Virus record (IMG/VR): IMGVR_UViG_3300042469_000548
Coordinates: 1 to 41,274 of that record
Strand: one strand, 5' to 3'
Source: a virus
Length of the DNA stretch: 41,274 nt
A model generated the notes under the pieces. It did no database searches, was not told the origin of the DNA, and saw only the letters and a list, made by a program, of their open reading frames with translations. Below, piece after piece: positions 1,509-38,216 of the stretch (position 1 is the first letter of the stretch; every line of letters begins with the position of its first letter). The translations under genes and the position numbers were made by a program.

Positions 1509-1987
1509 AACTGAATATTAGCCCAATAATGATTAACTAAATCAAGTCTTTCAAAGCCTTGTTCAATCAAGTATCTATCGTTTACGTCAACATTAACCAT
1601 CAAGTTAAGCCAGTAATCCACCTCAGTTATTACTGCTTCGGGATTATCGATAAATTCAGGTTCTTCACCACCTTCAATATAATCAGGATTATGGATTTGT
1701 TTTGGTACTTTTTCACCCTCTGAATTAAACCATATATCATTTTTTAACTGGTAAATAGTAGGTTGTATTTTGTCGATAATATCATTCAAACACCAAGCCA
1801 AATCTATTTTTAATGATAAAGCATTGATTGCAATAATTGGATTTACATTAATATTTTCACCTACTTTAAAGCCGTCTAAATCATAGGTTTGAAAACCTTT
1901 ACATATTGCGTAAACTTCATACTCTGTGCTAGATTTAGAGTAACTAGGGACATTTACAAGCTTCTTTTTTATTATAAATGGTATCAT
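1505..1987 (-). CDS. Hypothetical protein downstream of tail fibre
   Basis: 160 residues, soluble, acidic in the second half, with a Pro/Glu-rich loop (NPDYIEGGEEPEFIDNP, about 100-116) and aromatic residues near the C-terminus. No known domain is recognised. The start overlaps the fibre gene's stop as TAATG and its stop overlaps the next start, so it is part of a tight chain of coupled late genes. Genes directly after a fibre are sometimes fibre chaperones or small baseplate components, but nothing in the sequence proves this. Confidence 0.65.
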   Translation of the reverse strand: MIPFIIKKKLVNVPSYSKSSTEYEVYAICKGFQTYDLDGFKVGENINVNPIIAINALSLKIDLAWCLNDIIDKIQPTIYQLKNDIWFNSEGEKVPKQIHNPDYIEGGEEPEFIDNPEAVITEVDYWLNLMVNVDVNDRYLIEQGFERLDLVNHYWANIQL

Positions 1988-3540
1988 TATCTTAAGCGTT
2001 TAGTTAAAATATCAATGTTGTGAGTAGTTGCCCCTGCTAAAGTTGTGCTAAATGTCACAGCCGTACCAGAATCGCATCTAATACTAGCTACATACGTTTT
2101 TGATGTTTGAGTAGCAAAATAATTAGGCTCTATTACGTGAGTAGTTGCAACCCCTGCATTTGTATAATTAATTTGAAAACCAGTTACCCACAAGCTAGAA
2201 CCAGAAGCGTATTCAACTGTAATTACTAATTCATATAAGCCTGTAGCACTTGCCGTAAATAGTGATTGAGTGGTATATGCCGTTGTTCTTGCTGTAACAC
2301 TAAAGTCATTTATTATAGGAGCAACGCCCATTGATACGGTTGTAATCCCTGCATAAGTTGTAATTTTAGCAGAACCAGTTAGATTAATATTCCCCCCAAA
2401 ATCACTAAGTGCTAATCCAGTGTGCTTTATAAAATACCTGTTCGAATTGGTATTATTCAAAGCACTTGACAAGAATATTATCTCTTGAGTATGTGTTGTT
2501 GTTGTCGGGTCGAAATGAATACCCCTATAACTAGAGCCAGCAGAAACAGACCCTAATGTTCCGAAAATTCTAAGGGCATTAGTTATGCCTGAATTATTCC
2601 CTTTTCCTGCGGATAAACTAAAAATATTTAAGTCTCCAGAAGTTGCGATATGATTTCCTGAAAATGATACTGATCCACCATTACCCGTAGCTACTGAGAA
2701 TGCGTTATTATTAATTACAAATGACGTTGCCGTACTGCTGGTAAAGTTTAATTGATTAGGTGATGATATAGTAGAGCCTGCAATACCAACAAAGCCGACG
2801 TTAAACTTACCAGCTCCTTTTACAATGACATCAATTCCAATATTACCATCGCTTCCAACTGCTTCAATTTTCGGGTTTGCCCCTGCTATTGAATTAGTTA
2901 ATTGTGCATAATTAACTGCACTTGCTACACCATTAAATCGAACGACTGGTAAACTTCTTACAATTGCATCGAATGTATTTGAATCTGTTGTGCCTATTAC
3001 ATTACCAACACCAGTATTTCCACCTGTAAGCCATGAACCCGTAAGAGATGTTAAGTAAGTATTAGAATCTCTCGACCCGTCCGCTTTTAAGAACTGTGAA
3101 GAAGTACCACCTAGATAGATAAAGCCACCACCGTCCGCAATAACACTTCCTAAGAATTGAGCATTATTCCCGTTTATCTTGCCTTGTATACCTACTCCGC
3201 CAGTAACAACCAATGCCCCTGTTGTTGTAGATGTTGATACTGTTGCATTAGTTAAAGCAATTGCAATATTTGAAGTTGCCCCCCTACCTGTTACCGTTTG
3301 AAGCGTATCAACCTCAGCAGTTAAGTAAGGCACATTTGATGCACTTGTAACTAAGCCTTTAGCATTTACAGTTACATTGTTAAACGTGCCTATATTGCTG
3401 TTAACCGTTGCAAGTGTAGCAATTACAGAACCCGTTCCCGAAGCTGTAACGTCACCAGTTAAGGCGGTAATTCCACCGCCACCACCACCGCCACCGCCAA
3501 CTACGGTAACATTGTTTATTTTTTTTGCGTACTTTGCCAT
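1987..3540 (-). CDS. Tail fibre protein with polyglycine linker
   Basis: 517 residues, low in charge and very rich in Gly, Thr, Ser, Ala and Val, as in trimeric beta-helical fibres. A basic N-terminus (AKYAKKINNV) is followed by a run of nine Gly (about 15-23), then LTGDVTASGTGSVIATL, a pattern common in phage fibres. A region with FLKADGSRDSNTYL resembles the short repeats of tail collar and fibre shafts. The C-terminal 120 residues look like a compact beta-sandwich receptor-binding tip. Probably contacts the host surface. It is the last of three consecutive fibre-type genes. Confidence 0.8.
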   Translation of the reverse strand: MAKYAKKINNVTVVGGGGGGGGGITALTGDVTASGTGSVIATLATVNSNIGTFNNVTVNAKGLVTSASNVPYLTAEVDTLQTVTGRGATSNIAIALTNATVSTSTTTGALVVTGGVGIQGKINGNNAQFLGSVIADGGGFIYLGGTSSQFLKADGSRDSNTYLTSLTGSWLTGGNTGVGNVIGTTDSNTFDAIVRSLPVVRFNGVASAVNYAQLTNSIAGANPKIEAVGSDGNIGIDVIVKGAGKFNVGFVGIAGSTISSPNQLNFTSSTATSFVINNNAFSVATGNGGSVSFSGNHIATSGDLNIFSLSAGKGNNSGITNALRIFGTLGSVSAGSSYRGIHFDPTTTTHTQEIIFLSSALNNTNSNRYFIKHTGLALSDFGGNINLTGSAKITTYAGITTVSMGVAPIINDFSVTARTTAYTTQSLFTASATGLYELVITVEYASGSSLWVTGFQINYTNAGVATTHVIEPNYFATQTSKTYVASIRCDSGTAVTFSTTLAGATTHNIDILTKRLR

Positions 3541-9616: not shown

Positions 9617-10720
9617 TTAAACCGCTGTAGCAATCGCATTAAATGCGCCATTCACTTCATAAAGTGCATCTGTTGCACTAAATTCAGTAAGAGGAGAAAC
9701 CCAAACATCGAAGTGTAAGCCTACAATCATTTCGTAGTACTCACCGCATTCATTTGGTAAGATACGAACATCGTAAACTAAGCCTGGTACAAACGGATCC
9801 ATCATTGTCCCTCTTTCCATTGTACCAATTGGACGACTGAATTTACCAACATACTCATTGTATGATGCAAATTGAACAGAACCCGGCATGAACATACCGA
9901 AGTTGTTAGCACCACCCAAAATAGTACCAGCGTTTAAATCAGAATAAAATTTATATCCTGCTGCTGCATTCATTGCTGAAATATCAACCCCAGCAGAGTT
10001 GCAACATCCGTAACCCATTGACTGAGTAGCAAGGTACATGTTACCATTTCCGAAAACTAAAGGCGTTCCACGGAAAGTAGATTGCATAACTTCCTGACGG
10101 AAAGTATTGAAACCTGCTGGTATAACACCGCCAGACTCTAAGCCAGTTGTTGCAGTTGTTCTATAAACAGGAAATGACTTTGTAACCGCTCCGCCTTTCC
10201 ATTTACCAACCTTAGCAGCGTATTGAGTAATACAAGCGTCATTGATTGATTGACGCAAAGAATCAATGTCTAACATAAATTCTGTTACGACTTCTCTCAT
10301 TGCTTGCAATGCTGTTGCTTGACCTGCTGCGTTGTTTGATTGACCAAAGCGAACCCAATCAGAGTGAGAAGAACAAAGAACTCTTAAAGCTTCTTCTGAC
10401 ACTTTGAAAGACTGCTCTCTGTACAATGTTGTATTGAAAGTTTCTTCTAAGTATGGTCTTTCTACACCGTTACCGCATGATTTTGCAGTTTCAACACTTG
10501 CAGGAGTAGAACGAACTTTGTGAGCTACACGAACGGGGCGAGGTTGCCCAGGCTCTACAGTGCCGTTATCAGTGATTACAGAACCGTCTCTACGGTTTGC
10601 AGGGTCAAACATTGCCTGTAAGAAACCGACAGGGGTTACTAATTCGGCTTGTTGTGGATTAATTTCGTTTAATCCAACTAAGAGGGCTGGACATGCAGCA
10701 CCTGTTTGAGTAATTGCCAT
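9617..10720 (-). CDS. Major capsid protein
   Basis: 367 residues, no membrane span, balanced composition. It directly follows the coiled-coil scaffold gene, and its size and order (portal, head morphogenesis, scaffold, this gene, tail tube) fit a major capsid protein. Visible segments include a long helix with QAMREVVTEFMLDIDSLRQS (about 140-159), like the spine helix of HK97-fold capsids, and a C-terminal part with GLVYDVRILPNECGEYYEMI. The gene is bracketed by strong hairpin terminators at 10739-10768 and 9583-9608, consistent with separate control of expression. Specific family not recognised. Confidence 0.8.
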   Translation of the reverse strand: MAITQTGAACPALLVGLNEINPQQAELVTPVGFLQAMFDPANRRDGSVITDNGTVEPGQPRPVRVAHKVRSTPASVETAKSCGNGVERPYLEETFNTTLYREQSFKVSEEALRVLCSSHSDWVRFGQSNNAAGQATALQAMREVVTEFMLDIDSLRQSINDACITQYAAKVGKWKGGAVTKSFPVYRTTATTGLESGGVIPAGFNTFRQEVMQSTFRGTPLVFGNGNMYLATQSMGYGCCNSAGVDISAMNAAAGYKFYSDLNAGTILGGANNFGMFMPGSVQFASYNEYVGKFSRPIGTMERGTMMDPFVPGLVYDVRILPNECGEYYEMIVGLHFDVWVSPLTEFSATDALYEVNGAFNAIATAV

Positions 10721-10738
10721 TGTTTATTGAGAATTAAA

Positions 10739-10768
10739 AAAGGCTAAAGAGTTTAGTCTTTAGCCTTT
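10739..10768 (-). terminator. Strong intrinsic terminator between scaffold and capsid genes
   Basis: Perfect 12-bp arms AAAGGCTAAAGA (10739-10750) and TCTTTAGCCTTT (10757-10768) around a 6-nt loop. The minus-strand transcript continues into a T-run. It lies upstream of the capsid start codon, so capsid expression needs readthrough, processing or a promoter not seen here. Confidence 0.8.
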
Positions 10769-10789
10769 CAATATAACAATAACAATTTT

Positions 10790-11659
10790 TTATTTTTGGT
10801 TTGCTAACTGGTCAGCCAAAGCCCTTTCAAACGCCTTTTGGGTTATTGGGTTTTTGTGAGTAGCATTTCCGCCTGTATTAGATGGCAGACCAGTAGTTGT
10901 AATTGTTGGCGTTGCTGTTTGTGGTGTACTTACAGCCAAATATTTTGAGTTAGAATAGATATCTTCCTCTATGTCTTCAAAGGTAATATTTTTATTATTA
11001 CGTTGTGCATAAAGTTCAGGATTTTTTTTACTCTTAATAACTTTATTTCCGTTTTCATTTACGATTTCCCATTCATTTTGTTGCAAATGCTTGTCAAGTT
11101 TTGCTTTGAAAATGGTCAATCTGTCTTCTTTATCGATTGAATCGCTCCAGTTTTTAGACAAAACACGAGATTCGATGAAAGAATCAATTTCTTTTTGAGT
11201 GTATTCTTTGCGCAATTCATTGATTTGTTTTGTGCTTAACTCCTCAATTTCTGAAACTTTTTTGCGCTCAATCTCAATCTCAGCCGTAAGCCTTTTTACG
11301 GCTTCGGAATCGTTTGATTGCGTTTTAGACGTAAGTAAGTCAAAAGCGGAATTTCTACGGTCTGTATAGTTCCTGTTTTCAAATACTTTGTCTATTTCTT
11401 CTTTTGAAAATCCTTTAGACTTTAATTGCTTTTCTAAGTTTTGATCTAATGAAGAAATGTAAGTATTAAGATAATGATCTTTTAAAGCTGAATTGTTTTT
11501 TGCATCCTTTTCAGTGAATAGGTTGGTATCAACTACACCCGCCACATTATCGGGAATTTCAAAGTCCAAAGCGTCTAATCCTTCGATTGCGTCAATTTCA
11601 GATTTTTCAATACCAGCCTTTTTTAGTACTGAAATAATAAAATTCTTACCTTTTGCCAT
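10790..11659 (-). CDS. Capsid scaffolding protein (putative)
   Basis: 289 residues from the ATG at 11657-11659; the frame is open further upstream but overlaps the preceding gene. The centre (about 120-165) is a charged coiled coil (SEAVKRLTAEIEIERKKVSE and onward). The C-terminus has a Thr/Pro-rich flexible part (TPQTATPTITTTGLPSNTGG) and a short helix ending in ALADQLANQK, as in gp20-like scaffolds whose tail binds the capsid protein. Position immediately upstream of the capsid gene supports the call. No protease domain is seen, so removal of scaffold must rely on another route. Confidence 0.72.
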   Translation of the reverse strand: MAKGKNFIISVLKKAGIEKSEIDAIEGLDALDFEIPDNVAGVVDTNLFTEKDAKNNSALKDHYLNTYISSLDQNLEKQLKSKGFSKEEIDKVFENRNYTDRRNSAFDLLTSKTQSNDSEAVKRLTAEIEIERKKVSEIEELSTKQINELRKEYTQKEIDSFIESRVLSKNWSDSIDKEDRLTIFKAKLDKHLQQNEWEIVNENGNKVIKSKKNPELYAQRNNKNITFEDIEEDIYSNSKYLAVSTPQTATPTITTTGLPSNTGGNATHKNPITQKAFERALADQLANQK

Positions 11660-11691
11660 GTGTTTAATTGTTGTTTGTTTTGTTTGTTTGT

Positions 11692-11922
11692 TTACGCTAA
11701 TACAAAATTTCTGAATGCAGGCATTCTTTGCTCTTTTGGCAGTGTCATTTGAGTATCTGCAAGAAACTGAGAAATCCAACGCTCTGTAACAATAAAGTCG
11801 TCACCTGCTGCATTTAATTTTCTATCAATTACCTTTACCATACCTTCCGCACCTGCTGGTATTTTTTCAATCTTTGTGTTTTCCGCCTTCTTATCTAAAG
11901 GCAATTCTTTTGCTTCTGCCAT
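11692..11922 (-). CDS. Small hypothetical protein upstream of scaffold
   Basis: 76 residues, soluble, Lys/Glu-rich N-terminus and a compact C-terminal half (VTERWISQFLADTQM). No domain is recognised. Phages often encode a small protein here, but its role is not evident. Its start is 70 bases from the divergent lipoprotein gene, and the spacing to the scaffold start is 32 bases. Confidence 0.6.
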   Translation of the reverse strand: MAEAKELPLDKKAENTKIEKIPAGAEGMVKVIDRKLNAAGDDFIVTERWISQFLADTQMTLPKEQRMPAFRNFVLA

Positions 11923-11992
11923 TTTTTTAAAGTTTTTATGTACAATTAAAATTTAATTACGTAATTTACTATAAACTAAACAAAAAAACATT

Positions 11993-12379
11993 ATGAAAGC
12001 TTTATTTATCCATATTATTTTTATCACATTGTTGTTTTCATGCAAAAAACAAGATGATATAAACCCATCAAAACAAACTTTATCCTTTATAGTTCAAATA
12101 GATGAACAAGCTTCGCAGGCTTTAGATTGTCGTAAATTATGCTACTTTGCAGATAATGACAAATCAAAAGTTGATACTCTAAAATTCTGTAATGTTGGAT
12201 TAAATACATTTAGAGTTACGATTCAAGCAAACACGTCTATTGAGTTTTTTATGTCTGGTAAATCAAATTTGATTGCTACTAAAATTACAAAGCTTAACGG
12301 ATTGACTCAATTAAATTTAAAACATGTTTCCGCTTCTGTTTATTCTGCTGAAATTGCACACGTTAAATCTATTTATTAG
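11993..12379 (+). CDS. Lipoprotein on the opposite strand of the late operon (moron-like)
   Basis: 128 residues. It has a clear type II signal peptide: short basic start (MK), hydrophobic core and lipobox LLFSC with the lipidated Cys at 17. The next residues, KKQDD, resemble the acidic export signals that place lipoproteins on the cell surface in Bacteroidota. The rest is beta-rich without a known domain. It is the only plus-strand gene in the roughly 30-kb late block and converges with the head morphogenesis gene (11-base overlap). Phage lipoproteins of this kind can block receptors and prevent superinfection; here that is an inference. No clear promoter is seen upstream beyond a weak TAATTTAC. 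Confidence 0.75.
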   Translation: MKALFIHIIFITLLFSCKKQDDINPSKQTLSFIVQIDEQASQALDCRKLCYFADNDKSKVDTLKFCNVGLNTFRVTIQANTSIEFFMSGKSNLIATKITKLNGLTQLNLKHVSASVYSAEIAHVKSIY

Positions 12380-13211
12380 AATATTTATTGTAGATGCTTT
12401 CTGATACAGGAATTAGAGAGTGTCTACAGTTCCAACCGCCTAAGTTTACAAATATATTTATTTCGTTTGTGCCTGCTATTTTACCGCTCCAATCGCCCTG
12501 ATTACCCCACTTTTGTACTTGTTCTTTTGTGAAGTACTTTCCGTGCTTTGCTTGACAAAAAGAACGGGTATCGCTTATAGCCGTACCACGATATAAGTAA
12601 TGCTTTAATCCTAAATCATCGCTTACAGTATTCATATATTGTCTTGAATACTGCCTTATCGCATCACTAGAAACCTGTGAAATATATCTCTTAATTGTTG
12701 GTTGTGATATTAGTTCAACTTTTAAGAACGCTTTCAATTCACTTATAGAAGTTCCAGAACTAACTTGCTTTTGTATACCTTCGATTAAAGGCTGTTTGAA
12801 ATTGCTATCTATACCACTACCTAAAAGACTATCTACAGTTGTGAAAACGTTTGATTGAGATATTTGTTTATAAACTATTTCGTTACGTTCGTAATTATCT
12901 AGTATTGAAACAAAGTAATCATCAATAAGTTTTGATGTGCTTGTATAGTCTTTTAGATAGTCTTTAACCGCCTTCGAATAGTCTCCTTTGAAATACTGGT
13001 CAATCTTTGGCTTTATCGCTTGTATAGCTTTTAGATTCTCGATTGAATTTAAAACCGTTCCAATATTATTACGCTTTAACGCTTCAATGTCTCCAATTAT
13101 TTCATCATACAAACCATTAGAAGCATCTATTGCAGACGCTTCCATTTTCTTGCTTGCATCCTCTAAAGTCTCCTCTAAAGTGTCTAATATTTTAGATTGT
13201 TTGTTTTCCAT
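12369..13211 (-). CDS. Head morphogenesis protein (SPP1 gp7 / Mu F-like minor head protein)
   Basis: 280 residues. The N-terminal 150 residues are helical and charged. The C-terminal part has the family pattern SDAIRQYSRQYMN, then YRGTAISDTRSFCQAKHGK, then NLGGWNCRHSLIPVS with paired Cys and His. Proteins of this family bind the portal and enter the capsid as minor head proteins. The ATG lies within the 3' end of the -1 portal extension (20-base overlap) and follows the portal gene, as in many tailed phages. Its 3' end overlaps the plus-strand lipoprotein gene by 11 bases. Confidence 0.82.
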   Translation of the reverse strand: MENKQSKILDTLEETLEDASKKMEASAIDASNGLYDEIIGDIEALKRNNIGTVLNSIENLKAIQAIKPKIDQYFKGDYSKAVKDYLKDYTSTSKLIDDYFVSILDNYERNEIVYKQISQSNVFTTVDSLLGSGIDSNFKQPLIEGIQKQVSSGTSISELKAFLKVELISQPTIKRYISQVSSDAIRQYSRQYMNTVSDDLGLKHYLYRGTAISDTRSFCQAKHGKYFTKEQVQKWGNQGDWSGKIAGTNEINIFVNLGGWNCRHSLIPVSESIYNKYSNK

Positions 13212-13416
13212 TAATGCGTGGATTACCTAATATTTTACGGGCTGTTGCTTCATTAAATCCAAATATTTCATAAAGCAAAGATATAGCAGCGTTGTAATCT
13301 GTTATGCCTTCTGCTACTGATGCTTGTATTTCTAAAATACCCTGTACACCACCTACAGAACCTTTTAATTTTGCTTTTGCTTCTGCTTCTATATCTACTG
13401 GTGTATCTATTTGCCC
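13192..13416 (-). CDS. Portal C-terminal extension in the -1 frame (frameshift product)
   Basis: The portal frame ends at 13407 just after a run of eight G on the minus strand (13421-13414). Slipping back one base at this run opens a frame of 74 codons with no ATG of its own, ending at 13192 within the start of the head morphogenesis gene. The encoded segment (EAEAKAKLKGSVGGVQGILE and onward) is a well-formed helical domain with coding character. It is best read as the C-terminus of the portal, reached by -1 frameshifting or by a homopolymer length change. A sequencing or assembly error in the G-run would give the same picture. Confidence 0.65.
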   Translation of the reverse strand, partial: GQIDTPVDIEAEAKAKLKGSVGGVQGILEIQASVAEGITDYNAAISLLYEIFGFNEATARKILGNPRINGKQTI

Positions 13417-15224
13417 CCCCCAATATTCATGCCATCATTTCCAACTATTGGAATAAGTGAAGCCGTATTCTGAGTATTGATACTTTCAGCTAAAGTATAA
13501 ATAATTCTTTTTTGATCAATGTATTGCAAATCTAAGAAATTAGGCACTGTTTGAATCGCTTCATTTATCAAACTTGTAATTTGACAAGAAACAATAAACT
13601 GAGTTTTAGTGCATGCCCCCGAACTCATTTCAAGTACCTTTTCGTCACTTGTTTTGTTTGGCATCGGGTCAAGTTGCAAAGTCAACTCATTAACTTTATG
13701 CTGAGGGCTGTTTTTCCCAAACTCTTTTTGAGACAATGAAATATACAACTGATTAAGCATTGAACTTGGAGCACCTGCATCCTTAGCTGTTTTTATGTTG
13801 CTCATCAAAGCATCAGCATAAACAACATCGAATTCACTAGGTATCTGAACTGTTGGCAAATTATCAAAACGTATAGCACCTTGATAACCGTATCTTAATT
13901 CGTTTACAAAGAATATAATCGGGTTAATGATATTATTACCTAAGTGATTAGCAATAATAGATAAGAACCCGTTCAATTCCTGTCTATCGTACATTTTAGC
14001 AATACCAGAGTTAACCGCTGGTTCTTGCATTAACCATTCAAAATTAAACGCTGCTAAACCGTCTTGTATATCTTGTTTGTACTCTTGTTTTAAATATTCA
14101 ATACTTTTTATGTCTCTATTGATGTAACCCATTGGCGGAATAGGCACGGAAACAGAATCATTCATACCTGTTTTTTGTGCTACCTTAATAAGCTTATTAC
14201 CAAATGGGGTTTTATTGGTAATCATACCAGTACCACCGCAAGTATTACAAGCAACATCATAAGGCTGTTTAGTACTACTCATTTTCTGAATAGTTCCTTT
14301 ACCTTTACAGACCTTGCATTCAGTATCTTGAATTTCCCATCTGTCAGGATGTAAGTGCAAAACCATGTTTACTTGGTGATCTGAATATCTTCGAACCGCT
14401 TCGTTAAACATTGGAACGCATCCCTGAAAAAAAGACTCGTTTAAACGTTCTTTGATAGTAAACTCTTTAATCACACCACCAGACTGGACGCATGGCATGT
14501 ATTTATTCCCTTCTTTATCAACTACGCTAAAAGGGAATATTTCAATAGTAAATGTGTTTTTCTCATACTCCCCTGTTTGGGTAATTATCGAATATGATTC
14601 ATTATCTACTGCAATTAAAATTTTGCCTTTATGTACGTATTTATCCCCTTCTTTTACTTCGCTTTTTTCTTCTTGTTCTGCTACGAAAAGTACGTTTTCT
14701 TCATAGTAATAAATATCATCACTTTCGTAAAAAAACGGATAAGGGCGTACTAGTTCGGTATCATCTAAAGGATTGTTTTTTGGCAAAGGTAAAACAGCTA
14801 AAACGCTGTTAGGGTCTGCAAGCATCCTATCAACAAAAAAGCTAAAAGTCCAATTTGTTAAGGAGTCGAAAAACGGGAATGATTCTAAAATATAATCCTG
14901 CAAAGTAGCTTTATTTTTGCTAATTCCTTTTTGTTCTGGAAAGTCAATTTTAAAACCCTCTGCTTGATTAATTTTCTTTACAACATTTGAAGACTTTTCC
15001 CAATATGTTTTTGTAACAGGCTCATAAACTGCACGTCTATACTCTTTGTAAATTGGCAATTCGTTTGGTCTTGCCGTTTCGTCAATGAGCTTATATGGAT
15101 AGTCACCACAAGCGTGTATTTCTAAAACCTCTGCTATTTCGTCGGCTTCTTTTTTAAACTTTGAATAAGGAATATCTTTTTTATCCTTTGCTAAAAAAGG
15201 CTTTATTATTTCTTCTGTTAACAT
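13407..15224 (-). CDS. Portal protein
   Basis: 605 residues in the zero frame, about 677 if the -1 extension is added. It starts 7 bases inside the previous gene. The size, the fold-like succession of helices and strands, and the following head morphogenesis, scaffold and capsid genes identify a portal. An unusual insert carries two CxxCxGxG units (C303/C306 and C326/C329) like a DnaJ-type zinc finger, probably a loop or clip decoration. The C-terminal part has helices such as NFLDLQYIDQKRIIYTLAES. The portal forms the dodecameric DNA channel bound by the terminase. Confidence 0.82.
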   Translation of the reverse strand: MLTEEIIKPFLAKDKKDIPYSKFKKEADEIAEVLEIHACGDYPYKLIDETARPNELPIYKEYRRAVYEPVTKTYWEKSSNVVKKINQAEGFKIDFPEQKGISKNKATLQDYILESFPFFDSLTNWTFSFFVDRMLADPNSVLAVLPLPKNNPLDDTELVRPYPFFYESDDIYYYEENVLFVAEQEEKSEVKEGDKYVHKGKILIAVDNESYSIITQTGEYEKNTFTIEIFPFSVVDKEGNKYMPCVQSGGVIKEFTIKERLNESFFQGCVPMFNEAVRRYSDHQVNMVLHLHPDRWEIQDTECKVCKGKGTIQKMSSTKQPYDVACNTCGGTGMITNKTPFGNKLIKVAQKTGMNDSVSVPIPPMGYINRDIKSIEYLKQEYKQDIQDGLAAFNFEWLMQEPAVNSGIAKMYDRQELNGFLSIIANHLGNNIINPIIFFVNELRYGYQGAIRFDNLPTVQIPSEFDVVYADALMSNIKTAKDAGAPSSMLNQLYISLSQKEFGKNSPQHKVNELTLQLDPMPNKTSDEKVLEMSSGACTKTQFIVSCQITSLINEAIQTVPNFLDLQYIDQKRIIYTLAESINTQNTASLIPIVGNDGMNIGGGK

Positions 15225-31190: not shown

Positions 31191-31397
31191 TTAAATTTTA
31201 TTAAATAAACGTCTTACAATGTAACCTCTAATAATGCTTGCAATAAAGAAAACAAGCGTAATGATAATGTTTTGATTCAAACTAACTTCGATGTTTAAAA
31301 TCGGATAAATTACAATCTGAATCATAAAACTTGTAACTAATCCGATTACGGTTTGGGTTAAGCTCTCCATAAAGGAGAGCTTTTTTGTTTGTTTCAT
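31191..31397 (-). CDS. Small two-span membrane protein (DUF7220-like)
   Basis: 68 residues. Two hydrophobic helices (VIGLVTSFMIQIVIYPIL and NIIITLVFFIASIIRGYIV) with a conserved-looking end GYIVRRLFNKI, the signature pattern of a widespread small phage membrane family. The start overlaps the Dam-like gene's last base. A plus-strand terminator hairpin at 31360-31386 lies inside its first codons. Function unknown; the family is common in temperate and virulent phages. Confidence 0.72.
   Translation of the reverse strand: MKQTKKLSFMESLTQTVIGLVTSFMIQIVIYPILNIEVSLNQNIIITLVFFIASIIRGYIVRRLFNKI
31360..31386 (+). terminator. Plus-strand terminator inside the small membrane gene start
   Basis: AAGCTCTCC (31360-31368) and GGAGAGCTT (31374-31382), 9 bp with a 5-nt loop, followed by a T-run on the plus strand. 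It lies within codons 5-13 of the minus-strand gene. It may stop antisense transcription, or shape translation of the gene. Confidence 0.5.
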
Positions 31398-31996
31398 TAG
31401 AATAATGATGTTTGGTTAAATAATCCTTTTTCGTTCCAGAATATCTTTTCAATAGTCTTTTTTTTATTGTTGGTTGCTGATAAAGAACTTCTATGTTTAA
31501 AAGCGTTTACTTCTTTAAATGGTGTTTCATATTCTGAAATATAAACAGGATAAATACAATCAGAAGCCCACTTATAAAATGATTCATGGTCAAAACCGCC
31601 TTCTTTATATTCCCCTGTACCTTTGTAAGGAATATCGCAATATATGACAGGTTTTTTACCTTTAATTTCTACATTTTCATAAGAACTATTAGTTAACTGC
31701 AGGTTCTGCAGGTTCTGCAGGTTCTGAATTCTTGCTAAATGTTCAACTAATTCAATATTTTGAATTCTATTATCAATCAGTTTTGAACCGTTTTTTTTGA
31801 TATAATCACAAAACTTTATACGCCTTTGTTGAATGTCTTTAATATTTAATAAAGTAGGAATATCAATACCTATTTTATTCATACTATCTAAACAACCATT
31901 GACAATAAACTCATGCGCTAATTGTTTTATATTTTCAATATCTTGACCATATAAATAACCTTTTTCACTATTATTGCCAAAACTCCAGCACGTCAT
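31397..31996 (-). CDS. Dam-like DNA adenine methyltransferase, C-terminal part (after amber codon)
   Basis: 199 residues from the ATG at 31994-31996. It is in the same frame as the part encoded at 32069-32317, separated only by a TAG (32069-32071) and 24 sense codons. It carries the catalytic motif DIPY (a DPPY variant) in CDIPYKGTGEYKEGGFDHE, and WSFGNNSEKGYLYG typical of D12-class adenine methylases. A 9-bp triplicate repeat gives QNLQNLQNLQ near the middle. Alone it lacks the SAM-binding FGGGG part, so it is inactive unless the stop is read through or the two parts combine. Confidence 0.7.
   Translation of the reverse strand: MTCWSFGNNSEKGYLYGQDIENIKQLAHEFIVNGCLDSMNKIGIDIPTLLNIKDIQQRRIKFCDYIKKNGSKLIDNRIQNIELVEHLARIQNLQNLQNLQLTNSSYENVEIKGKKPVIYCDIPYKGTGEYKEGGFDHESFYKWASDCIYPVYISEYETPFKEVNAFKHRSSLSATNNKKKTIEKIFWNEKGLFNQTSLF
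31697..31726. repeat. Tandem 9-bp repeat in the Dam-like gene
   Basis: CTGCAGGTT three times (31697-31705, 31706-31714, 31715-31723) plus CTG. Being 9 bp it keeps the reading frame and adds NLQ residues when copy number changes. It may vary the target-recognition region. Confidence 0.8.
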
Positions 31997-34114: not shown

Positions 34115-34270
34115 ATGACAATCCTTACAACAATCAACGGCATTACCTTCTACGAAAAGAATGGTAACTGCTATTTCGGAAAAGACATTAACGGTAATAA
34201 CGAAATGTTAACCATAGACAACGCACCAGTATTTACTCCCAAAGAAATATGTTTTAAATATTTAGCGTAA
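34115..34270 (+). CDS. Small hypothetical protein at the entrance to the cassette array (51 aa)
   Basis: 51 residues, beta-rich (ILTTINGITFYEKNGNCYFG, then MLTIDNAPVFTPKEICFKYL). Its stop codon is the TAA of TAACG at 34268-34272, the left end of cassette junction A. It starts 4 bases after the previous stop. It resembles small beta-barrel phage proteins, but no family is recognised. Confidence 0.55.
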   Translation: MTILTTINGITFYEKNGNCYFGKDINGNNEMLTIDNAPVFTPKEICFKYLA

Positions 34271-34377
34271 CGTTTTGGGGCTTTTAACCACTGCACTAAC
34301 TTAGAAGCATAAAATTATGATTAACGAAAATTTTTCAAACGAAGCACAGAACCCCCCATTGCGTAAGACTGCTGTTA
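34268..34377 (+). repeat. Cassette junction A (imperfect palindrome, degenerate)
   Basis: Left end TAACGTTTTGGGG (34268-34280) overlaps the upstream stop codon. Right end (34352-34377) begins CCCCCCATTGCG and closes with CTGTTA, matching the right arms of junctions B-D in form. The middle part of the left arm is missing, so the two arms pair only at TAAC/GTTA and GGGG/CCCC. Length 110 bases. Confidence 0.5.
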
Positions 34378-34577
34378 TAAGCCGTTTTTCTTTATGGTGG
34401 ATTAGAACATTCAAAGTAATATCAAACCAAAGAGCAAAAGCAATCAGTTTAAAATGGTATAGAAATGTATTTGGTGATGAAATTAATCATCTGAATTGCA
34501 GGTCTATTTGGATTGACAAAAGAGGGAATAGATATAGAGTAAGTCATTTGGAGGGTGTTTCTGAAAATGGCTTATAA
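34317..34577 (+). CDS. Hypothetical protein, cassette gene 1
   Basis: 86 residues. The first about 20 residues are encoded inside junction A. The rest is basic and compact (ISLKWYRNVFGDEINHLNCR, then SIWIDKRGNRYRVSHLEG), with a strand pattern that looks like a small folded domain. The stop is the TAA that begins junction B. Function unknown. The core resembles a small phage domain with NVFGDEIN, but I cannot name a family. Confidence 0.55.
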   Translation: MINENFSNEAQNPPLRKTAVISRFSLWWIRTFKVISNQRAKAISLKWYRNVFGDEINHLNCRSIWIDKRGNRYRVSHLEGVSENGL

Positions 34578-34702
34578 CGTCCTGTGGCTTTGTCTTGTTG
34601 CCGATAAAATAAGACCTAATCTTTAAATTAAACACAATGAATACAAGTACAAAACCAACTGAAAATTTATCCGAATGTGGCAATAAGTCAAAACCACTGT
34701 TA
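34575..34702 (+). repeat. Cassette junction B (imperfect palindrome)
   Basis: Left arm 34575-34602: TAACG, then a 4-base extra segment relative to the right arm, then GTGGCTTTGTCTTGTTGCC. Right arm 34679-34702: GGCAATAAGTCAAAACCACT and GTTA. The two pair at 16 of 20 positions in the main block plus TAAC/GTTA. Length 128 bases, with the start codon of the next gene inside the loop. Confidence 0.7.
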
Positions 34703-34954
34703 GTGGTAGTTTTATTTGATAAATACGGGTTAGAATTAGAGAACGGAAGTATTATAAATATAAATCAAACAGTTAACGGGGAGAATTTATTCGTAATGTT
34801 AGATGTTAAAGAATTGGATTTAAGATATGGTTTTGAAATATCTTATAAATATCAATATGACGTTTTAAGTTTATTAGAGCCAAATAAATTAAACGGTGAT
34901 ATAGAATGGGAAATTGTCGGTAGTTTACATTCGTTTCTCGGAAATTACCGCTAA
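34637..34954 (+). CDS. Hypothetical protein, cassette gene 2
   Basis: 105 residues. The first about 22 residues (MNTSTKPTENLSECGNKSKP) come from junction B. The rest is beta-rich with alternating hydrophobic residues (LLVVVLFDKYGLELENGSII, then LDLRYGFEISYKYQYDVLSL). It may form a compact beta domain. The stop is the TAA of junction C. No family is recognised. As a whole it is a candidate mobile accessory gene. Confidence 0.5.
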   Translation: MNTSTKPTENLSECGNKSKPLLVVVLFDKYGLELENGSIININQTVNGENLFVMLDVKELDLRYGFEISYKYQYDVLSLLEPNKLNGDIEWEIVGSLHSFLGNYR

Positions 34955-35075
34955 CGCATACAGCCTTATTTAGTGTGGGCTTAAAAGCACTATGTACAAT
35001 TTAATTCTAAAGTTTATGAATAATTCTAAAGTTGATTTACCTACGATGCCCACATTGAATAAGGGTGGTGTTAGC
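34950..35075 (+). repeat. Cassette junction C (imperfect palindrome)
   Basis: Left arm 34950-34980 starts GCTAACG and ends CCTTATTTAGTGTGGGC. Right arm 35048-35075 begins GCCCACATTGAATAAGG and ends GTGTTAGC. They pair over about 24 of 28 positions, and the left arm has 3 extra bases after TAACG. The closing pair is GCTAAC/GTTAGC. Length 126 bases. The clearest of the four junctions. Confidence 0.78.
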
Positions 35076-35336
35076 AGAGGTAGATGTTATAGTAGAACTC
35101 ACGAAATGGTTCTCGAAATCAAAAAGACTCTTGAAGAAAGAGGAGAGTGTGGTGTAGGGTTAATGAAGGATGCAACCGATACACTAAAGAGATTGAAAGA
35201 CTTGGGTGTAAACGCAAAGGTCGAGCCTACATACAGAACGATGCCACCAATGATAAAAAGAAACGAACTTGGAGAGCCTATTGACTTGGTTTTAAATGAA
35301 CAAGTTCAAGTAGGGATGGTTTTCTATCTCTGCTAA
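34992..35336 (+). CDS. Hypothetical protein, cassette gene 3
   Basis: 114 residues. The first about 28 residues lie in junction C. The remainder (EMVLEIKKTLEERGECGVGL, then DLGVNAKVEPTYRTMPPMIK) has a helix, a Gly-rich turn and strands, and ends VGMVFYLC. No family is recognised. The stop codon is the TAA of junction D. A small enzyme or inhibitor is possible, but no catalytic motif is visible. Confidence 0.5.
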   Translation: MYNLILKFMNNSKVDLPTMPTLNKGGVSRGRCYSRTHEMVLEIKKTLEERGECGVGLMKDATDTLKRLKDLGVNAKVEPTYRTMPPMIKRNELGEPIDLVLNEQVQVGMVFYLC

Positions 35337-35458
35337 CGCCTACGGCTTGGCGAAGTGGGGGAATTTAACCCACAAAAGCCGATTAGAATTACTAATGTTC
35401 AATAACAGATAAAAGATGATAGAAAGCAGTCAGCCCCCATTTTGCCAAACCGATGTTG
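35332..35458 (+). repeat. Cassette junction D (imperfect palindrome)
   Basis: Left arm 35332-35361 starts GCTAACG and ends CGGCTTGGCGAAGTGGGGG. Right arm 35434-35458: CCCCCATTTTGCCAAACCGA then TGTTG. They pair at 16 of 19 positions in the main block; the left arm has 3 extra bases. Inside is a second hairpin: CGGCTT with AAGCCG, and GTGGG with CCCAC. Length 127 bases, enclosing the start codon of the methylase. Confidence 0.75.
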
Positions 35459-36234
35459 TGTTCAGTACGGTTTTAGAAGTGAACCGTATCTACAATGAGG
35501 ATTGTATGGAAACTTTAAAGCGTATTCCAAAAGGAAGTATTGATTTAATGCTTACCGATATTCCTTATGGCACAACTCAAAACGAATGGGATAACTTACC
35601 AAACTTAAACGAAATGTGGAATGAATGGGATAGAGTAATGTCAGAAAAAGGGTGCTGGATTTTTACTTGCTCACAACCTGCAACAAGTGAATTAGTATTA
35701 AGTAACAAAAAGTATTTTAAGTATAGTTTAGTTTGGGATAAAGTATTATCTACTGGACATTTAAACGCTAATATAATGCCATTAAGAAGGCACGAAGATA
35801 TTTTAGTTTTTAGTAGAGGAAAAACAATATACAACCCACAAAAGATAAAAAGAGATGTGGTAAGAATTGACAAAGGAAGTCAAAAACAAGTAGGTGGTGA
35901 TGGGAAAAGCTGTTATGGAAAGTTTACTTATGATGACAAATATTTAGAATATAGAGAGCCTACAAGCATTATTCAATTTAGCAATGCAGATAAAACGAAC
36001 CTTATACACCCAACTCAAAAGCCAATAGATATTTTTAGATACCTGATTAAGACCTACTCAAATGAAAATGATTTAGTATTTGATGGCTATATGGGAAGTG
36101 GCACAACTGCAATAGCTTGTATTGAAGAAAATAGAAGGTTTTTAGGTTCAGAACTAAACAAAGAATATTATGATAAAGCAATTAAACGAATTGAAATTAA
36201 GCAGTCGCAACCGTCATTGTTTGCAGGTCGGTAG
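35416..36234 (+). CDS. Beta-class DNA methyltransferase (N4-cytosine or N6-adenine)
   Basis: 272 residues. Catalytic motif IV is TDIPYG (about 47-52), a DPPY variant; the target-recognition region follows; then HPTQKP (about 198) and motif I as DGYMGSGTTA (about 226-235). Motif IV before motif I is the beta-class order. The real domain begins near VNRIYNEDCM (22-31), and the first about 20 residues are translated from junction D. A methylase gene at the end of the cassette array would protect phage DNA. Specificity cannot be told. Ends in TAG. Confidence 0.82.
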   Translation: MIESSQPPFCQTDVVFSTVLEVNRIYNEDCMETLKRIPKGSIDLMLTDIPYGTTQNEWDNLPNLNEMWNEWDRVMSEKGCWIFTCSQPATSELVLSNKKYFKYSLVWDKVLSTGHLNANIMPLRRHEDILVFSRGKTIYNPQKIKRDVVRIDKGSQKQVGGDGKSCYGKFTYDDKYLEYREPTSIIQFSNADKTNLIHPTQKPIDIFRYLIKTYSNENDLVFDGYMGSGTTAIACIEENRRFLGSELNKEYYDKAIKRIEIKQSQPSLFAGR

Positions 36235-36325
36235 TATTGCACACAACTAGCGTGTTGACGCAGTAAGTTTTTACAAACATATATAAATATTTGTAATTAA
36301 TGTAAATAATTGTTAATATTACATT

Positions 36326-36579: not shown

Positions 36580-37461
36580 ATGAACACAGAAAACACACAA
36601 GTACAAAAACAACCGCTTACACAAAAAAGCCTTTTCGCTCGTCCAGATGTAACTCAAAAATTTACCGAAATGCTAGGTAAGAGGTCAACTTCATTCATTA
36701 CATCGGTACTTCAAATTACGGCATCTAATGATATGTTGAAAAATGCAGAACCAACAAGCGTTTATCAGGCTGCATGTATAGCGGCTACTTTAGATTTGCC
36801 TTTGAATAATAATCTAGGGTTTGCTTATATTGTTCCATTCAACAACCGTAAAAAAGGCATTGTAGAGGCTCAATTTCAACTAGGGTACAAAGGATTTATT
36901 CAGCTAGCGCAAAGGTCTGGACAGGTAAAAACAATAGGGGCAAATGCTATTTATGAAGGTCAAATAGTTTCATCAAATCCGCTTAGTGGTTATGTTTTTG
37001 ATTTTGAAACTCTGAAATCCGACAAGATAATAGGTTATGCTTCGCAATTTACTTTATTGAATGGTTTTGAATCAACAAAATACATGTCAATTGAAGAAAT
37101 TGAAAAGCATGCAAAACGCTTTTCACAAACTTATAAATCAGGTTATGGAATTTGGAAAGATGATTTTGAAAGCATGGCAATGAAAACAGTTCTAAAGCTT
37201 AATCTTTCAAAATACGCTCCTTTATCTGTTGAGATGCAAACCGCTTTAATTACAGATCAATCAGTAATTAAAAATTCTGATACATTAGATGTATCTTATA
37301 CAGACAATAGCGATTTAATTGTCCAATTACCAGTTTTGGAATTAGGTTCTAAAAACTTTGAAGGCTGTAAAAACGCATTAAGAACAGGTGACGCAACGAT
37401 TGAAGAAATTGAAATGCAATACGAACTAAGTGAAGAAATTAAAACTGAATTACTAAAGTAA
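36580..37461 (+). CDS. recT: RecT-family single-strand annealing recombinase
   Basis: 293 residues. The RecT core is evident: helical start with VTQKFTEMLGKRSTSFITSV, then LDLPLNNNLGFAYIVPFNNR, EAQFQLGYKGFIQLAQRSGQ (about 105-124) and IYEGQIVSSNPLSGYVFDFE. The acidic C-terminus after about residue 240 may be a regulatory tail. It anneals single-stranded ends made by the neighbouring YqaJ-type exonuclease. The two are one operon with a one-base stop/start overlap (TAATG). Confidence 0.9.
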   Translation: MNTENTQVQKQPLTQKSLFARPDVTQKFTEMLGKRSTSFITSVLQITASNDMLKNAEPTSVYQAACIAATLDLPLNNNLGFAYIVPFNNRKKGIVEAQFQLGYKGFIQLAQRSGQVKTIGANAIYEGQIVSSNPLSGYVFDFETLKSDKIIGYASQFTLLNGFESTKYMSIEEIEKHAKRFSQTYKSGYGIWKDDFESMAMKTVLKLNLSKYAPLSVEMQTALITDQSVIKNSDTLDVSYTDNSDLIVQLPVLELGSKNFEGCKNALRTGDATIEEIEMQYELSEEIKTELLK

Positions 37462-38216
37462 TGAAACAATTCAAGATAAGAGCTTCACAGGCTTCTAAAT
37501 TGATGGGTCGTATTGGTTTGACTGATATTCAAGAAGCTAAATTAATTGAGTTAACAGACCGTAATAACGGAATTGGTAAACCTTTGACCGATAAAATGAA
37601 AATAGAACTTTCGGGATTAGAGAAAATAAAATCTAATCCTGAATTGCCCGAAACTGCTATTTCATATTTAAAAGAATGGTACTCAGAGTCAAGGACAGGA
37701 GTAAATAAAGAGATTAATAACAAGCAAATAAACAAAGGTAATTATTGCGAAAATGAAGCTATTTCAGTAATTGCAGAGCGTTTAGATTTTGGATTCTTAA
37801 AAAAGAATACAAAGTTTTTTGAAGATAATTTCTTTTGTGGAACTCCCGATATTTTGAAAGAAAATACTGTTATTGATGCGAAATGTTCATGGGATTACGT
37901 GACATTCTTAGATTCAGTTACTAGTGATATTAATTATAGTTATTGGTGTCAACTTCAGGTATACATGCACTTAACAGGTAAGAAAAATGCTTCATTATGT
38001 TATGTACTTTTAAATACCCCTAGTGAAGTTAATTACGGTAATGAGGTTATTTGGTCACATATACCTATAAATGAGCGTTTCTATTCAATTCATTTTGAAT
38101 ATGATAGTAGTTTTATAACTGAATTAGAAAAGCGTGTTATAATGGCTCGCAAATGGCTAACAGAATATGACCAATTAGTTAAATCTAAACTTGGAATAAA
38201 TGAATCTAACTCTTAA
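37461..38216 (+). CDS. YqaJ-type (lambda Exo-like) exonuclease
   Basis: 251 residues. The nuclease core shows KGNYCENEAISVIAERL, then FCGTPDILKENTVIDAKCSW with the PD-(D/E)xK residues, and YWCQLQVYMHLTG, as in the YqaJ viral recombinase family. It degrades one strand of double-stranded ends to make substrates for RecT. Translation is coupled to recT by an overlapping TAATG. The stop is followed by CGG, giving TAACGG, similar to the cassette junction left arms, but no matching right arm is visible. Confidence 0.88.
   Translation: MKQFKIRASQASKLMGRIGLTDIQEAKLIELTDRNNGIGKPLTDKMKIELSGLEKIKSNPELPETAISYLKEWYSESRTGVNKEINNKQINKGNYCENEAISVIAERLDFGFLKKNTKFFEDNFFCGTPDILKENTVIDAKCSWDYVTFLDSVTSDINYSYWCQLQVYMHLTGKKNASLCYVLLNTPSEVNYGNEVIWSHIPINERFYSIHFEYDSSFITELEKRVIMARKWLTEYDQLVKSKLGINESNS

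Follow-up and report, generated by a model that had tools for sequence, protein, structure and literature searches.

Clusters of attC sites are already known from phages: Qi et al. 2023 (PMC9892861) describe attC clusters with methyltransferases in phages that include Polaribacter phage P12002L. According to the same source, one of the P12002L sites (P12002L_attC2) recombines with IntI1 in E. coli, and divergent attC directions were noted in this phage. The bottom strand of known attC sites has a G after the AAC of the R' box (PMC2727003), and the additional domain of IntI is described as needed for activity (PMC9668308, citing Messier and Roy; PMC8138268). The OTH-22-1 motif, found in several phyla, was proposed on computational grounds as a new form of attC (PMC8632094). 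For Bacteroidetes, IntegronFinder 2 reported one complete integron, in Salinibacter, and earlier only In0 (PMC9024848). In the literature, preprints not covered, we found no description of Bacteroidota-wide arrays with a XerA-like recombinase or of translated attC sites in phages.

Organization of the cassette array

The window analysed here, a 41,274-base virus record from IMG/VR, encodes phage replication, packaging and tail genes; the host of this phage is a member of the Bacteroidota. An earlier reading of the sequence alone (hereafter the sequence-only reading) had pointed to four neighbouring genes, each ending with the TAA of a TAACG motif. All four ORF ends agree with it: the motifs lie at 34268, 34575, 34952 and 35334, and each TAA is the stop of the upstream ORF (ends 34270, 34577, 34954 and 35336). 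Bit scores and E-values for the junctions in the following list refer to R1, a covariance model trained with junctions B, C and D among its sites and with junction A excluded.

34115..34270, plus strand: gene of 51 aa preceding the array, which shares its TAA stop codon with junction A; there is no junction on its left
34268..34376, plus strand: attC-like junction A, left arm partly deleted, from TAACG to GTT at 34374; R1 match 34260-34388, 38.5 bits, E=6e-8, outside the training set
34317..34577, plus strand: ORF of cassette 2, 86 aa; a 19-aa leader from junction A, then a phi17:2-like protein
34374..34578, no strand assigned: example of cassette-end pairing, GTTATAAGCCGTTTT (34374) with AAAATGGCTTATAAC (34564), 14/15
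34575..34701, plus strand: attC-like junction B, third-best plus-strand palindrome; R1 94.5 bits (in training set)
34637..34954, plus strand: ORF of cassette 3, 105 aa; start in the loop of B, 20-residue leader
34952..35072, plus strand: attC-like junction C, whose palindrome ranks first in the window; R1 88.5 bits (in training set)
34992..35336, plus strand: ORF of cassette 4, 114 aa; start in the loop of C, no relatives found
35334..35457, plus strand: attC-like junction D, 123-bp body; R1 115.3 bits (in training set)
35416..36234, plus strand: cassette 5, N6/N4 DNA methyltransferase (PF01555, E=5.5e-31) with predicted attC-encoded leader MIESSQPPFCQTD
36244..36267, plus strand: attI-like array end, the YAAC box of the last cassette, then TAGCGTGTTGACGCAGTAAG

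The phage had also been said to lack an integrase, and no tyrosine integrase was found (no PF00589 match anywhere in the record). With three strong sites and one damaged site the locus qualifies as a CALIN, which requires two or more attC sites without an integrase gene in the vicinity. The extent originally given, 34268-35458, contains the junctions but falls short of the whole feature, which continues to about 36267, since the final cassette is formed by the methylase gene and is bounded by the attI-like sequence.

A second DNA methyltransferase-like protein is encoded outside the array on the other strand (31397-31996, minus; phrog_56, E=6e-17), and genes for RecT and a phage exonuclease lie directly downstream of the array end (36580-38216, plus). 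Relatives of RecT and the exonuclease in viral contigs are just 36-56% identical and their RecT loci lack an R1 match, so that no empty-site comparison is available for the window phage. No close relative of the phage, array-bearing or array-free, was found among viral contigs, and hence cassette gain or loss in its own lineage has not been seen.

Structure and covariation of the junctions

When every TAAC..GTT pair across the 41 kb window was scored for arm pairing, the three top plus-strand scores belonged to C (16.6), D (14.5) and B (13.3), which are consecutive and all at gene ends; in dinucleotide shuffles, mean hits per whole window on both strands at or above these scores were 0.017, 0.2 and 0.8, respectively. 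Junction A was not detected by this palindrome scoring. Compared with the model it lacks about 17 nt of the left arm, which explains its poor pairing, and it is a damaged fourth copy. Four palindromic junctions had been inferred from the window alone, and for B, C and D the pairing bears this out, but A is recognized only by the model. Extra bases after TAACG stand on one side only and form an asymmetric unpaired spacer; the 3-4 extra left-arm bases noted earlier are indeed present in the alignment. Single-base bulges, among them the extrahelical G and T that attC sites conserve in the L'' arm, lie below the resolution of these alignments.

Aligned divergent sites have nothing in common except TAACG, GTT, short boxes and the stem. 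AACG and GTT are invariant in 27 aligned sites (AACG or TAACG being the search criterion for most of them), and the AAC/GTT pairs are kept in 97-101 of 101 chromosomal sites. In alignment A1 (27 sites) 84.9% of cells are paired, against 63.2% in shuffles. It should be noted that this covariation is partly circular, its sites having been picked in part by palindrome score; a model based on sequence only, R2, was therefore built. The 108 chromosomal sites that it collected without any use of structure, with structure mapping anchored on TAACG and GTTA, pair in 79.1% of cells versus 60.4% when shuffled and carry 387 double changes versus 166 in shuffles, while slid registers pair in 35-51%. A lack of covariation in homologous junctions had been set beforehand as a refuting outcome; covariation is present, also without structural selection.

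Further divergent attC-like sites are arrayed in viral contigs and in P12002S, the sister phage of P12002L; the R1 hits number five in P12002S (best E=2e-21) and three, all weak, in P12002L. R1 does not match the class 1 integron array pB12 even at E=10, which shows that the class is not merely canonical attC caught by a loose model, and the negative controls, 50 kb of E. coli K-12 and five RecT loci, gave no match at E=10. Rfam returned nothing at gathering threshold in the window and chance-level matches only in 34150-35550.

Breakpoints and spread of D-type bodies

The left-arm pattern of junction D occurs in 17 other viral contigs of IMG/VR and the right-arm pattern in 39 viral contigs, the two sets overlapping partly. 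The closest copies of the 123-bp body from other virus contigs are 96-99% identical, and identity begins at TAACG and ends at GTT, with differing or unrelated flanks on both sides. Among loci for which both flanks are available, 14 pairs share the downstream gene and differ in the upstream flank, and two pairs show the converse; given exchanges at both flanks, both edges of D are breakpoints, and the body usually moves together with its downstream gene. The prediction that gene blocks change at the junctions thus held in other phages, exactly at TAACG and GTT. With this and the covariation in support, the junctions are almost certainly mobile cassette junctions of the attC-like kind that had been proposed, although no excision or insertion has been observed.

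Within 85,000 bacterial and archaeal genomes the D left-arm pattern was found in two contigs only, one from F. fontis and one from a Chitinophagaceae MAG that carries phage-like genes. The latter contig (L036) has two attC-like groups on opposite strands, at 1753-2236 (minus) and 10232-14373 (plus). A blastn search with the D body against cultured phages gave no match. A repeat family without mobility was ruled out, as D bodies differ in their flanks on both sides.

Pairing of cassette ends and the array end

The ends of integron cassettes pair because both belong to one attC in the excised circle. In the arrays studied here, pairing joins the 13 nt beyond the GTT of a junction to the 13 nt that lie outside the YAAC of the following junction. 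Such R-box pairing reaches at least 11/13 in 19 of 29 same-cassette pairs, compared with 3 of 35 same-junction pairs and 4.6% at random; some of the non-pairing cassettes are explained by misses or miscalls of the first scan (CAACG for TAACG, a junction three bases off). In the window, the paired R boxes are those of 34374-34575, 34699-34952, 35070-35334 and 35455-36244. As in integron cassettes, this complementarity of the two ends is what would be predicted for a circular intermediate. A nearly fixed G.T (GCAGT versus ATTGC) recurs within otherwise well-paired R boxes and is perhaps a signal of strand or orientation.

On the reading favoured here, the junctions belong to a Bacteroidota class of attC about 125 nt long. 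Its sites have a G after the R' AAC and a GTT at the opposite end; the stem covaries and contains an unpaired spacer that is asymmetric, and R-box pairing reaches a length of about 13 nt.

In phage arrays, the YAAC that closes the last cassette is not followed by an attC body, and a shared sequence stands there instead, with a consensus of approximately T-N3-TTATA-N-ACGCAATAAA. CGCA[AG][TC] is present at 12 of 21 phage array ends versus 0.5% of background YAAC sites, and a scan by the array-end motif alone returned 17 viral loci, in several of which an attC cassette lies immediately upstream. In the window, the YAAC box at 36244 pairs in 11/13 positions with the cassette start at 35455, and the sequence that follows agrees with the consensus only partly. 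By analogy, this conserved phage array-end sequence may be described as attI-like. Loci L096, L100, L101, L103, L105 and L107 have the attI-like motif and no convincing upstream cassette; they are chance matches or empty landing sites.

Chromosomal arrays and the adjacent recombinase

Related arrays occur in bacterial chromosomes: R1 matches were obtained in 132 of 149 sampled Flavobacteriaceae genomes and 113 of 198 sampled Bacteroidota genomes, and F. fontis has dozens of attC-like sites in long one-strand arrays. At one end of the chromosomal arrays lies a tyrosine recombinase gene. Thirteen array loci were fetched because recombinase and attC were near each other; in all of them the recombinase has a constant side and strand relative to the array, and 142 of their 148 array ORFs share one orientation, pointing away from it. 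Nineteen of the 25 recombinases with a listed attC on the same contig are at most 20 kb from it, 16 of them in the usual layout; the layout differs at the remaining three (G012:C13, G017:C7 and G055:C4). The recombinase is present in 98 of 132 attC-positive versus 3 of 17 attC-negative genomes (Fisher p=9e-6), which leaves 34 attC-positive genomes without a recombinase match at E<=1e-40. In 11 of the 13 loci, a candidate attI with a pairing R box is located between the recombinase and the first cassette, at a distance of 25-112 bp from the stop codon of the recombinase, and ten of these 11 candidates contain TATA, against 5.5% of the background.

These data bear on an explanation that dispenses with a dedicated recombinase, in which the junctions are conserved linkers that let the phage's own homologous recombination shuffle modules and the palindromes are not recombinase sites. 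Such shuffling would account for the exchanges observed at both edges, the nearly identical phage D bodies would suffice for homologous exchange, and the phage does encode RecT and an exonuclease at 36580-38216; yet most junctions are alike in form only, with compensatory changes, the outer R boxes pair within the cassette and not within the junction, which linkers would not need, and a conserved attI-like motif marks the array ends while the related chromosomal arrays adjoin a recombinase. We consider the linker explanation improbable.

The array-side recombinases are not typical integron integrases. All eleven array-side proteins score below the cut-off of the integron integrase family TIGR02249 (181-213 bits, cut-off 265), and their best-scoring family is NF040815 (XerA-like; 189-233 bits, cut-off 220). 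The F. fontis recombinase has 18 residues where the IntI4 structure has 60, so that the IntI-specific domain around patch III is absent, and it aligns to XerA structures without a large gap. Most array-side recombinases are 347-402 aa long, with an N-terminal stretch outside the NF040815 model. With an integron-like layout and a missing IntI insert, the host platform works in the manner of an integron, yet does not pass one of the tests that define IntI integrons. That this XerA-like recombinase moves the cassettes is a reasonable inference, drawn from adjacency and co-occurrence only, and we favour it with some reserve.

The sites might instead be true attC moved by a conventional IntI from other bacteria. 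The eleven sub-threshold TIGR02249 scores, the reported great rarity of complete IntI integrons in Bacteroidetes (PMC9024848) and the absence of R1 matches from the class 1 array make this no less unlikely than the linkers, even though a P12002L attC recombines with IntI1 in E. coli (PMC9892861).

Polarity and probable translation of the junctions

In the chromosomal arrays the genes lie opposite the AACG strand, as in canonical integrons. Genes of the phage arrays lie on the AACG strand and point toward attI; with the bottom-strand AACG on their coding strand, phage arrays have the reverse polarity of canonical integrons. That the palindromes are RNA elements at gene boundaries, either terminators or translational regulators, can be set aside with little hesitation: they are hairpin-capable and sit between the stop and start of successive genes, but no Rfam family matches them, a transcript of the chromosomal arrays would carry the complement since the genes there are on the opposite strand, and breakpoints, R-box pairing and the array-end site would be left unexplained. 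RNA regulators and plain terminators were accordingly both considered and rejected.

At phage sites, an ORF starts in the loop in 32 of 50 cases, and a gene ends near TAACG in 38 of 50. The D leader, MIESSQPPFCQTD or a variant of it, is fused to N6/N4 methylases, C5 methylases, a Mom protein, a helicase-methylase and GIY-YIG proteins. D-type cassettes mostly hold DNA-modification genes, and this pool probably serves in evading host restriction. All three reading frames of the D right arm occur, each with an in-frame ATG. In L018, L019, L056, L058, L061 and L069 the gene downstream of the D-type body is in another frame, with its own in-frame ATG in each; the bodies of L019, L058 and L061 are one base shorter, as if indels fit the leader frame to the gene.

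In several cassettes the frame contains no ATG, GTG or TTG ahead of the conserved domain, and in L016 the first is codon 101 after the junction. No in-frame start appears until deep inside the conserved domain in L016, L022, L052, L055, L068 and the window ORF 34317-34577, which implies that these six depend on the attC start codon. The clearest case is cassette 2. Its homologue in Cellulophaga phage phi17:2 is annotated as 59 aa, with its own Met opposite window residue 23; the window has CGT at that position and no ATG, GTG or TTG after the junction before codon 78. Initiation inside attC is strongly implied by these start-less cassettes, and the attC-encoded leader is likely translated, an inference from reading frames made without any protein having been observed. 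Possible in-frame starts exist within the inserts of cassettes 3, 4 and 5, so a need for the leader is not demonstrated there. Past its 20-residue leader, starting at residue 26, cassette 3 shows weak similarity to a YopX protein (E=7e-3), and the cassette 4 protein has no relatives in viral contigs or phages.

Proposed mechanism and significance

The sequence-only reading correctly recognized attC-like cassettes and missed the cassette-end pairing, the starts inside junctions, the inversion, the attI-like end and the host arrays beside a recombinase. At the level of sequence, the case consists of recurring bodies with two-sided breakpoints, covariation, within-cassette R-box pairing, an array-end site and host arrays on the recombinase side. 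The locus is, in our judgement, likely to be an integrase-free, CALIN-like cassette cluster at an attI-like site, served by a XerA-like recombinase of the host and using attC as a portable translation start.

In the proposed mechanism, a host-encoded XerA-like tyrosine recombinase would move cassettes in circular form, excising them and inserting them at attI or attC with a folded single strand as its substrate, and in the phage cassettes would be inserted at the attI-like site (around 36244). The equivalent of the attC bottom strand would be the coding strand in phages. The attC loop would supply the start codon, the right arm would code for a leader, about 12-26 residues long and in frame with the cassette gene to which it is fused, and the first bases of attC would complete the TAA stop of the preceding gene.

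Phages and their hosts probably share one largely overlooked gene-swapping system. A more ambitious version, which the evidence favours only slightly, is that integron-like platforms with a XerA-like recombinase lacking the IntI domain exist across the phylum Bacteroidota, and that phages tap the same system with inverted, translated-attC cassettes, a start codon and leader peptide that move along with start-less and chiefly DNA-modification genes, and a landing site of their own. Integrons had been regarded as nearly absent in Bacteroidota (PMC9024848); should the arrays prove functional, standard tools overlook the cassette system of an entire phylum. Its recombinase would lack a domain held essential for recognition of folded attC, a requirement that is directly testable. 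A functional system would also let a phage plug in anti-restriction genes as ready-to-translate modules, and the shared cassette pool would explain gene turnover in Bacteroidota phages and chromosomes. As one attC body opens at least four unrelated protein families in frame, it would be a natural portable part combining start codon and leader.

Comparison with known systems

The phage array most resembles that of P12002L (PMC9892861), another integrase-free attC cluster in a Flavobacteriaceae phage with DNA methyltransferase cassettes. The accessible part of that paper reports no Bacteroidota attC class, translated attC, attI-like ends of this kind or host recombinase. The OTH-22-1 motif (PMC8632094) has a RYYYAAC end and a comparable structure, and might overlap with the present attC class. 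NF040815 bears the name "site-specific tyrosine recombinase/integron integrase", which is a family name and denotes no tested cassette function.

Sedentary chromosomal integrons (Vibrio, Xanthomonas, Treponema) show the same succession of recombinase, attI and one-strand cassette array, and their sites, like the present ones, have AAC/GTT boxes, a G after the R' AAC and an unpaired asymmetric spacer (PMC2727003). In the host arrays the recombinase gene points toward the array; IntI genes in reversed orientation have been described from Spirochaetota (PMC9668308). In contrast to sedentary integrons, the host recombinase is XerA-like and without the IntI-specific insert, R-box pairing extends to about 13 nt, and the phage genes are directed toward attI, with their starts inside attC. 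The features examined place the array among the CALINs, as a new form distinguished by its polarity, its apparently translated junctions and the associated recombinase.
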